A DNA stretch of 39,236 bases from Candidatus Gastranaerophilales bacterium (lineage in GTDB: Bacteria > Cyanobacteriota > Vampirovibrionia > Gastranaerophilales > Gastranaerophilaceae): contig CANQMP010000016.1 in the NCBI GenBank assembly GCA_947624975.1, positions 1-39,236 on the forward strand, written 5' to 3'. The notes under the pieces are model-generated. The model was given only the letters and a program-made list of their open reading frames with translations. It did not search any database and was not told the origin of the DNA. The translations under genes were made by a program, and so were the position numbers. Of the stretch, positions 10,763 to 13,496 are shown one piece after another; position 1 is the first letter of the stretch, and each line of letters begins with the position of its first letter.

Positions 10763-11171
10763 TTATGCAAAATCTTCAAACGGTGAAATTCCCGTCGGTG
10801 CGGTTATTGTAATGGACGGCGAAGTTATTGCGGGCAGTTGCAATAAAAAAGAGGCATTAAACGATGTGACAGCTCATGCCGAAATTTTGGCAATTCGTGA
10901 GGCTTCCGAAAAACTGGGATGTTGGCGGCTTGACGGGTGCGAAATGTATGTCACTCTTGAACCCTGTCCGATGTGTGCGTGGGCTATCGTCAATTCAAGG
11001 TTAAAAGCGGTTTATTTCGGGTCTTATGATTCCAATTACGGTGCTTTTGGCTCTGTAATTGATGTCAGAAAACTTGCCAATTCAAAACTCAAAGTTTACG
11101 GCGGAATTATGGAAGAAGAATGCGATGAAATACTTAGTCAATATTTTTTGCGGTTAAGAAATAAATATTAG
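10746..11171 (+). CDS. tadA: tRNA-specific adenosine deaminase TadA
   Basis: TadA converts the wobble adenosine A34 of tRNA-Arg(ACG) to inosine. The 141-residue product has E-I-P-V-G-A-V-I-V, the zinc and proton-shuttle motif T-A-H-A-E-I-L-A-I-R-E-A, and the second zinc motif T-L-E-P-C-P-M-C-A-W-A-I, all as in bacterial TadA. D-S-N-Y-G-A-F-G-S after the catalytic core also fits. Its start lies inside the kinase gene in another frame, implying co-transcription with that pair. The stop overlaps that of the convergent pilin-like gene. Confidence 0.93.
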   Translation: MKRAINYAKSSNGEIPVGAVIVMDGEVIAGSCNKKEALNDVTAHAEILAIREASEKLGCWRLDGCEMYVTLEPCPMCAWAIVNSRLKAVYFGSYDSNYGAFGSVIDVRKLANSKLKVYGGIMEEECDEILSQYFLRLRNKY

Positions 11172-11955
11172 TTTTCTTCCAAAAATTCTTGATTCCAAGG
11201 ATAATCGTCTTTAATTTTCCATCCATCCCTTTGAATTAGTGCAGAACAAGCGTGTCTTCTGTTTTTTGATGACTTTTTAGGATTATCGGTGTTTCCATAT
11301 TTACATTCTTCCAATAACTTTTCACGGGAATAATTTTTATATTTAGCAAAACCGACGTATAATGACCTATTAAGAATGAATAAAAACGAATTTTGTCCGT
11401 CATATTCATCAAATTTACACATTTTATTCGGATTTACGCAATAAAATATATGCAGCAAATTACCAGAGACATAACCTGAAAATACAGAACCGTCAGCCAT
11501 TTTTACGGCAAAACAAGAATAATTACCATTTCCGCAAATTTGTTCATCCGTATCAACTGATAAAGTTTTAATGTATAATCCGATAGTATCTTTAAACCAT
11601 TTTATTGAATCTTCTGCAGGTATTTTACCACTACCTAAGGGTACTATATTTTGACCGAGCATATTTTCATCTGTTTGATATCTCAAAATAGCTTGTGACA
11701 TAATTGAATAAAATCGCGCAAGATGAGTTTCAACATTTTTTTTCTGATATTTTTGTATGAGTGTTGGCATCGTCATTGCTGCTACAACACCGATTATGCC
11801 CAAAGTGATTAAAACTTCCGCTAAAGTGAAAGCTCGTTTTTTTGAGGTAACTGGTTTGGAACACCCGTAAGAAATTTTTCCGAATAGCCTAAAAAGCCCT
11901 AAATGACAACCTTTCTTGGGGGGGGGGCTATGTGTGAAGTTTTATTAAAATCCAT
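11168..11955 (-). CDS. Prepilin-like protein interrupted by frameshift at a poly-C tract (candidate phase-variable gene)
   Basis: The sequence from 11846 down to 11168 encodes S-K-K-R-A|F-T-L-A-E-V-L-I-T-L-G-I-I-G-V-V-A-A-M, a class III prepilin N-terminus with Glu5, followed by a polar secreted domain ending near residues ...E-E-N. No ATG, GTG or TTG lies in this frame upstream of the hydrophobic core. The only well-placed start is ATG 11955-11953, with GGAGG at 11961-11965. From it the reading frame (M-D-F-N-K-T-S-H-I-A-P-P-P) enters a run of ten C (minus strand, 11918-11927) and then stops after about 18 codons. One extra C (11) or two fewer (8) would join the leader to the pilin frame with no stop. 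Either the gene is in an OFF phase, or the homopolymer was miscounted in assembly. Confidence 0.7.
11918..11927. repeat. Homopolymer of ten G (ten C in the coding strand)
   Basis: Ten consecutive G on the plus strand lie within the leader codons of the minus-strand prepilin-like gene. It is by far the longest G or C run in the window, in a region otherwise rich in A and T. Slipped-strand mispairing in such runs is the classic basis of phase variation. Confidence 0.85.
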
Positions 11956-11986
11956 AAATACCTCCAAATTCTCTTTTAACATTCCT

Positions 11987-12015
11987 ATTATTTACTATTT
12001 TTTTAATTTTGTCAA
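11987..12015 (-). promoter_or_regulatory. Promoter of the poly-C prepilin-like gene
   Basis: On the minus strand TTGACA (12015-12010) is followed by a 17-bp spacer and AATAAT (11992-11987). The RBS GGAGG is about 20 bp further on. The box is embedded in TTGACAAAATTAA, which is also found in front of the prepilin-like gene that ends at 12822. Confidence 0.6.
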
Positions 12016-12087: not shown

Positions 12088-12825
12088 ATGATAAGCAAAA
12101 TTGAGATCGACAAGCTGGCTGAAACCTATGAAACCGCCGATTTTATAAAAGATGACCCCGTGCAGTTTCCGCACAGGTTTAAAGCAAAAAAAGATATCGA
12201 AATTGCAGGTTTTATAGCATCTTTGCTCGCCTACGGTAATCGGAAAGTCTTTATCAGAAAACTCGATGAGCTTTTTAATATAGCTCAAAACGAACCTCTG
12301 AATTTTATTTTAAACTTTGAACCGAAAGTTTTGGGAAATTTTAACTATCGTTTCGGGAAGACCGAAGATTTTGCGGAAATTTTTCGCGTAATGCAGGGTT
12401 TATATAAAAATGACGGAGGTTTGGAAGAACTTTTTAAATACGGGCATGAAAATTGCGAAAACATGTTTATCCCCGTCACGGATTATTTTTATTCAAGGTT
12501 TAGCGAAAACGTCGGTCAGGGTGCATATTTTATGATACCTGACCCCAAAAAAGGCGGTGCGATGAAACGCATGTGTATGTTTCTGCGGTGGATGGTCAGA
12601 AAAAGTTCGGTCGATTTAGGCGTTTGGGATTTTATGAAACCGTCGGAACTTCTTATTCCGCTTGATGTTCATGTCGCAAGACTGTCAAGGGAAACGGGAT
12701 TATTAACAAGAAATTCAAACGATTTTAAAGCCGTGCTTGAAATAACCGAAAACCTGCGAAAATTTGACCCTAACGACCCCGTCAAATACGATTTCGCCCT
12801 TTTCGGCTACGGAGTTAATCATTAA
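12088..12825 (+). CDS. TIGR02757-family (DUF2400) protein
   Basis: The 245-residue product matches the conserved but functionally unassigned TIGR02757 family found in Bacteroidetes, spirochaetes and others. Visible landmarks are D-P-V-Q-F-P-H-R-F near residue 21, D-I-E-I-A-G-F-I-A-S-L-L-A-Y-G-N-R-K, the M-K-R-M-C-M-F-L-R-W-M-V-R-K block, P-L-D-V-H-V-A-R-L-S-R and the C-terminal D-P-V-K-Y-D-F-A-L-F-G-Y-G-V. The helix-rich pattern with a late conserved Asp and the F-x-L-F-G-x-G end recalls HhH-GPD DNA glycosylase-like folds, but the enzymatic role is not known to me. The ATG at 12088 is chosen; an in-frame TTG at 12058 lies too close to a run of T. Its stop overlaps that of the next, convergent gene. 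Confidence 0.8.
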   Translation: MISKIEIDKLAETYETADFIKDDPVQFPHRFKAKKDIEIAGFIASLLAYGNRKVFIRKLDELFNIAQNEPLNFILNFEPKVLGNFNYRFGKTEDFAEIFRVMQGLYKNDGGLEELFKYGHENCENMFIPVTDYFYSRFSENVGQGAYFMIPDPKKGGAMKRMCMFLRWMVRKSSVDLGVWDFMKPSELLIPLDVHVARLSRETGLLTRNSNDFKAVLEITENLRKFDPNDPVKYDFALFGYGVNH

Positions 12826-13496
12826 AGTTTATACGGATAATCATCCTTGAATTCAAAATTATCGTAAAAAAGAAGTAACGCACAGTAATATCCAGAATTT
12901 TTGCACGCTTTCAAAGCAGTCTCTCGGGTTTTATATGTTTCCGTACCTAAAGCACAAAAATGTTTGCCTTCCCCGCAATGACCTTTAGCCATGTCGTTAC
13001 TTATGCACAAAGTAAATCCAAAATCATCATATCCTACGGAATTTGGTTTTTTATCACCGTTTATGTCAACATAAATATCAACACAGGAACCATTATGCAA
13101 TATTAACTTTGTTCCGTCGGCTAAATAAGCAGCAAGTTCAAAATCAGCAGCCGACTTTGCTTTTTGTATAGAATTATATTTAATATATGGTGCGAGATAT
13201 TGTGTAAAAAATTTTTCTGACAAATCGGCATTAGCAAGTATATCAGTCTTCCCATCATCATTAAAAACTTCGCTTGATTTATTCCAATATTCAACACTGC
13301 CGTTATCAATTTCGGATAATTTAATTACTTGCTGCATCATGCTATAGAATTTTTTCAACCTTGTTGAAGCTTCTTTTTTCTTATAATTTTGCACAAGTGT
13401 CGGGATAGTCAAAGCCGCAACAACGCCGATAATTGCGAGTGTGATTAAAACTTCTGCAAGAGTGAAAGCAAATTTTTTAGATTTAATATTATTCAT
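12822..13496 (-). CDS. Prepilin-type N-methylation (pilin-like) protein
   Basis: The 224-residue product starts M-N-N-I-K-S-K-K-F-A|F-T-L-A-E-V-L-I-T-L-A-I-I-G-V-V-A-A-L, a prepilin peptidase site with Ala before the cleavage and Glu at +5, then the helical Y-K-K-K-E-A-S-T-R-L-K-K-F-Y-S-M-M-Q-Q. The C-terminal part has D-I-N-G-D-K-K-P-N-S-V-G-Y-D-D-F-G-F and several cysteines, matching the expected exported domain of this family. It is processed at the membrane and probably assembled or secreted through a type IV pilus-like machine encoded elsewhere. The DNG-D-x-x-P-N segment is comparable to the window's first, partial gene. It is intact, unlike its relative at 11168-11955. Confidence 0.82.
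   Translation of the reverse strand: MNNIKSKKFAFTLAEVLITLAIIGVVAALTIPTLVQNYKKKEASTRLKKFYSMMQQVIKLSEIDNGSVEYWNKSSEVFNDDGKTDILANADLSEKFFTQYLAPYIKYNSIQKAKSAADFELAAYLADGTKLILHNGSCVDIYVDINGDKKPNSVGYDDFGFTLCISNDMAKGHCGEGKHFCALGTETYKTRETALKACKNSGYYCALLLFYDNFEFKDDYPYKL

Follow-up and report, generated by a model that had tools for sequence, protein, structure and literature searches.

A poly-C tract in the leader of a type IV prepilin-like gene of a Gastranaerophilales bacterium is a candidate ON/OFF contingency switch

Most of what is known of phase variation comes from pathogens, among them Neisseria and Campylobacter, and from a few commensals. The pilC genes of Neisseria carry a poly-G run in the signal-peptide region, so that a leader homopolymer switches a pilus component; PilC is a pilus-associated adhesin encoded in two copies and, unlike the class described here, is not the pilin repertoire itself. 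The tracts of Campylobacter jejuni lie mainly in glycan and other surface genes, and elsewhere among bacteria slipped-strand phase variation typically acts on glycosyltransferase, polysaccharide and epimerase genes. In C. jejuni NCTC11168 there are 29 poly-G or poly-C loci of at least 7 (PMC4965091). The closest precedent for the locus reported here is given by the G-tracts of the sortase-pilus genes bbr_0113 and bbr_1889 of Bifidobacterium breve UCC2003, where a G10 locus was 93.4% G10 and 6.5% G9, and where the ON length of a pilus G-tract became more frequent on passage in mice (PMC9187656). As in the class described below, the host is a gut commensal, the G-tract of 10–12 lies between the start and signal region and the pilin body, the annotated length is OFF and a change of one base restores the frame (PMC9187656).

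The window, by which we mean the whole 39,236 nt stretch of DNA that was analysed, constitutes contig 16 of a Candidatus Gastranaerophilales genome of 1.9 Mb (G000). The features of the locus are as follows.

12822–13496, minus strand: adjoining prepilin gene with N_methyl and DUF6613 matches (Pfam) and an ordinary ATG, a paralogue free of the tract
11987–12015, minus strand: promoter-like TTGACA (12015–12010) and TAAATAAT (11994–11987), read from the sequence and common to the poly-C leader class of relatives
11961–11965, minus strand: Shine-Dalgarno sequence GGAGG, read from the sequence
11898–11955, minus strand: leader ORF from ATG 11955–11953 to TAG 11900–11898, translated as MDFNKTSHIAPPPRKVVI (18 aa)
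11918–11927, minus strand: C10 tract, candidate slippage switch (sequence and frame computation)
11828–11917, minus strand: pilin-frame remainder of the long prepilin leader, with ...SKKRA/F at its end (translation and N_methyl match)
11168–11833, minus strand: prepilin-like protein (FTLAEVLITLGIIGVVAAM..., N_methyl and DUF6613; Pfam, alignment and AlphaFold2)

An earlier note on this DNA had proposed that ATG 11955, preceded by GGAGG, is held one base out of the pilin frame by a run of ten C, and the coordinates and the translation confirm this. At 10 C the start is in the OFF frame, and its product is the short peptide MDFNKTSHIAPPPRKVVI, which ends at TAG after 18 codons. When tract lengths of 6–15 C were computed, only 8, 11 and 14 C put ATG 11955 into the prepilin frame, with a full product of 261–263 aa; a change of one unit at C10 thus toggles between a full-length product and an early stop. 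The proposal that 8 or 11 C joins the leader to the pilin without a stop was therefore correct, and 14 C is likewise ON. The prepilin frame itself (SKKRAFTLAEVLITLGIIGVV...) runs uninterrupted from 11941 to its stop codon at 11168, tract included. As the earlier note had also claimed, no ATG, GTG or TTG is present in the pilin frame upstream of the prepilin motif at the window locus, ATT 11875 being the sole non-canonical start candidate upstream of FTLAE. The note had placed the stretch from start to tract correctly, but the pilin gene itself extends to 11168.

The tract is flanked as gC10a. A first-order Markov model gives 0.011 G/C runs of 10 per window, and C8 has 3 overlapping matches in the window against 0.26 in dinucleotide shuffles; a chance origin of the run is ruled out by these two comparisons.

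The protein behind the tract carries an N-terminal methylation motif, [G/A]FTLxE followed by a hydrophobic stretch (PF07963, E 6.2e-6), with the putative prepilin-peptidase site between Ala 11833–11831 and Phe 11830–11828, and a prepilin peptidase is encoded in the same genome (PF01478 match, C12:14738). By alignment it shares 44–52% identity with proteins from other Candidatus Gastranaerophilales genomes. Since this conservation extends as far as a C-terminal RRHAC...DGWxIKDDYPWNQ motif, the gene is not a decaying remnant. AlphaFold2 modelled a helix at residues 5–56 followed by beta strands (pLDDT 81.8); the top PDB match of the model in a fold search was PAK pilin, with a non-significant E of 0.29. 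The prepilin motif and the helix-and-sheet model together make the product a candidate surface-exposed protein.

We conclude that the C10 run in this type IV prepilin-like leader is probably a contingency switch, turned ON and OFF by strand slippage, and we put the probability of this reading at roughly 0.6. Switching at this tract is something that we infer from sequence. DNA polymerase slippage would alter the tract length in single cells and give rise to rare ON cells, the gain of one C or the loss of two bringing ATG 11955 into the prepilin frame. The prepilin peptidase would then remove the leader, its proline run included; because the leader is cleaved off, the mature pilin would be identical at 8, 11 and 14 C, and only its expression would be switched. 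Dozens of prepilin genes of the genus stand behind interchangeable promoter, Shine-Dalgarno, ATG and tract leaders of the C or the G type, and with the tracts of related genomes almost all parked one base from ON, each cell would express few pilins of many. In the window's genome, the same kind of switch would also serve surface-polysaccharide genes, where this kind of tract is found as well.

That genome gave 103 N_methyl prepilin-motif matches and, counting both strands, 87 C/G runs of at least 8, mostly in prepilin leaders and surface-polysaccharide genes. A G/C run of at least 7 lies within 260 nt upstream of 36 of 102 prepilin starts. Most of these 36 have a common module, consisting of a promoter TTGCATTTTTTGAAAAATCGTTTATAATG, a Shine-Dalgarno sequence and MKKITISTLNPS-(G)n-FSPSKGF...FTLAE; n ranges from 8 to 19 across more than 20 prepilins with similar flanks, in a mixture of ON and OFF, and of the 29 with a recognisable Shine-Dalgarno start, 5 are in frame. 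Tract lengths in this genome range from 8 to 26. The FTLAE motif is doubled in prepilin genes at G000:C2:91302 and C38:9176 and at L151, the insert between the copies resembling a short palindromic repeat (GGCGCTACGCACGCAGCC).

Homologues of the window pilin were sought in 33 genomes of the genus, one per species. Their leaders contained C10, G10, C11 or tracts of other lengths, or were short and had no tract, and on this account the leader acts like an interchangeable unit. When a pattern of Shine-Dalgarno sequence, ATG, C or G run and FTLAE was scanned for, the arrangement was found in 21 and 19 of 32 genomes. Five relatives (G155, G138, G119, G073 and G006) were sampled in stretches, most of them picked near tracts. 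It can be seen that their runs of at least 7 are almost all of exactly ten: 56/57 in G155 (400 kb), 42/44 in G138, 25/28 in G119, 5/5 in G073 and 3/4 in G006. A contiguous 260 kb of G155 gave the same picture, all 35 runs of at least 9 being exactly ten, where 0.03 runs of at least 10 are expected. Of the 39 poly-C leaders from these five genomes, 33 have TTGAC in the 110 nt that precede the start.

The frame is as uniform as the length. Across the five species, 114 of 123 prepilin leaders need exactly one base more, so that both the slippery tract and its offset are conserved, and only 6 of 123 are in frame as against one third under random frame (binomial 1.6e-14, a value that overstates the evidence because the loci are related). 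The tract begins in all three codon phases with the same one-base offset, which is therefore not merely inherited with a single ancestral leader. Between the tract and FTLAE, the pilin frame is free of stops in 116/116 leaders, the other two frames in 27/232; an open frame over this stretch is needed only if translation passes through the tract. In the start frame, a stop occurs within 18 nt past the tract in 103 of 114 leaders, against 37 expected. Among 79 G-type leaders of the five genomes, 55 have GCTC or CTCC within 25 nt after the tract; these are complementary to the Shine-Dalgarno AGGAGC, and it is possible that a hairpin predicted from this complementarity hides the Shine-Dalgarno sequence.

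The same frame data bear on whether the gene has decayed, or whether the tract is part of a short upstream ORF and the pilin is translated from another start, such as ATT 11875, or by re-initiation. ATT 11875 does lie in the pilin frame, and the relatives' start-frame stops follow close behind the tract, as such a reading would have it. Against it stand the conservation of the mature pilin, the open frame from tract to FTLAE in every related leader and the want of an ATG, GTG or TTG in that frame at the window locus, and we regard this explanation as most improbable. A pseudogene is unlikely on the same grounds of a conserved mature pilin and an open frame in relatives. The earlier note had held that a ten conserved in relatives, combined with an alternative start for the pilin, would speak against switching; a ten is indeed the rule in the species of the genus that were read, but the pilin frame offers no alternative ATG, GTG or TTG.

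A conserved ten with a constant offset leaves two readings: either the loci are kept poised at OFF by mutation and selection, or a fixed tract is decoded by programmed slippage. According to the second, the ten C or G would be fixed in the DNA and the frame recoded at the RNA level, RNA polymerase adding a base or the ribosome slipping by –1; only a fraction of events would restore the frame, giving low, set levels of pilin, and both tract length and offset would be directly selected. Such a leader would resemble the programmed transcriptional slippage and ribosomal frameshifting of IS elements and dnaX in its conserved homopolymer, its downstream frame offset by one and its early start-frame stop. 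In bacteria the familiar examples depend mainly on A/T-rich runs, whereas the tracts described here are G/C runs of ten in both orientations. RNA-level recoding would account for a length of 10 and an offset of +1 being retained across five species with diverged flanks, for the early stops, for the identical offset in all three codon phases and for the scarcity of 9s in relatives, although 9 is equally OFF. It would also fit another genus (G122), where the tract is fixed at 11 and off by one in the other direction in 6/6 leaders.

Several observations nevertheless point to DNA. In the five relatives, a G run has C at either end and a C run has G, and these mirrored flanks make the two types one double-stranded element, GC10G, in either orientation; this flank rule is absent from the window's genome. 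C and G runs thus have the same length and flanks, yet they differ as RNA:DNA hybrids and as codons. The exactly-ten tract also occurs in unrelated genes of the relatives, about half of the time in frame, where recoding could only be harmful. A DNA-level process is favoured because GC10G is the same in both orientations and is found in these unrelated genes. One non-pilin gene (MLEAI...GGGG...KPDEFVKQ) has an exactly-ten tract with the +1 offset in two species (L183:6436 and L227:4917).

True length variants in DNA that are ON also exist. A pair of loci in G119, whose flanks are 97.4% identical and whose leaders do not differ otherwise, have G11 (ON) and G10 (OFF), and ON alleles of 11 (C11 or G11) were found in G155, G119, G006 and G160. 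Near-identical pairs differ in tract length in 10 of 15 cases in the window's genome and in 4 of 11 within the relatives' genomes, the latter not being an unbiased rate because some stretches were chosen for differing tract length. Length polymorphism between near-identical copies is thus seen for the tract class, at loci other than that of the window. Functional copies are accordingly not of invariant length at the DNA level, given these ON 11s and the range of 8–26 in the window's genome, and we consider RNA-level recoding, although it is the chief rival, unlikely.

Homopolymer runs as long as this one are difficult to sequence, and the true tract at the window locus might be 11 C, the gene being simply ON and the ten an assembly or sequencing error. 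The annotated G-tract lengths of B. breve can differ from those found by deep sequencing (PMC9187656). Contigs of the window's genome often end at such tracts, as C5, C8, C12, C27, C38, C39, C50 and C51 do at a G/C tract or within about 100 nt of one, and it follows that pilin loci are probably under-assembled in MAGs of this kind. Ten is also found, however, in related genomes that were assembled separately, and a tract of 11 C would only mean that the same switch is seen in its ON state. An error is in our estimation very unlikely.

The earlier note had called the arrangement a classic contingency layout. This is the best-supported reading, given the 87 runs, the common module and the tracts in glycosyltransferase and epimerase genes of the window's genome, but the relatives depart from the classic picture in being nearly all of exactly 10 with the same offset. 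The near-invariance of these lengths counts against a contingency switch, as loci free to mutate should be more widely spread in length. MutS was present in 22 of 22 genomes checked and MutL above the cut-off in 20 of 22, the window's genome included, and thus there is no obvious cause for raised slippage. For the same reason the spread of lengths is left unexplained by loss of mismatch repair, which was rejected as the source of the variable tracts in the window's genome because MutS and MutL are intact both there and in its relatives in the genus.

Tract length looks to be set per lineage, at 9, 10, 11 or 12–13. Over whole genomes, runs of exactly ten made up 73 of 77 runs of at least 9 in G138, 91 of 101 in G119, 12 of 79 in G000 and 1 of 95 in G101. 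In small samples of 60–140 kb, G11 accounted for 8 of 9 tracts in G122, and lengths were 10–11 in G022, mostly 9 in G123 and 12–13 in G101. What sets the length of a contingency tract becomes testable here, since the set length varies between related species, nearly all of which have MutS and MutL. A more sweeping proposal, possible in our view if doubtful, is that throughout this family of gut bacteria nearly the whole type IV pilin repertoire sits one base out of frame behind a tract of the length set for the lineage, that pilins are made only by a programmed slip, either at the RNA level or in DNA with a strong return, and that each cell would make a sparse random choice from dozens.

Contingency by G/C tracts is already known as a kind; what is new is its scale on type IV pilins, the rule that loci are OFF by one base and the lineage-specific set length. 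The pili of B. breve are sortase-dependent, with two loci and a Sec signal, whereas those described here would be built from type IV prepilins with dozens of loci per genome, in C and G orientations and of a length near-fixed across species. C. jejuni is alike in having genome-wide G/C tracts in surface genes that are ON or OFF by frame, but the tracts described here lie mainly in prepilin leaders, have a lineage-specific set length and are almost all OFF. In the open-access papers searched, we found no report for Gastranaerophilales or Melainabacteria of tract phase variation or of such a leader. A lineage of uncultured bacteria from animal guts, neighbours of the cyanobacteria, appears to run phase variation on an unusually large scale, on dozens of pilins at once, and standard annotation is predicted to miss the true starts of many of them.

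Outside the prepilins, the assignable runs of the window's genome fall in genes for GT8, GT2, polysaccharide deacetylase, polysialyltransferase-like, TupA ATP-grasp, epimerase and GT-D proteins, with a dense cluster on contig 4. There, 51–80 kb (L076 and L077) contains eleven C/G runs of at least 8 in 28 kb and covers glycosyltransferase, polysialyltransferase-like and polysaccharide deacetylase genes; this is likely to be a phase-variable surface-glycan region. At L103 (G000:C13:36298-45671), three adjoining genes, two of the GT8 type and one other, have a common poly-C leader, MKH(K/I/V)NI(V/S/G)QCPPPP, with 12–14 C.
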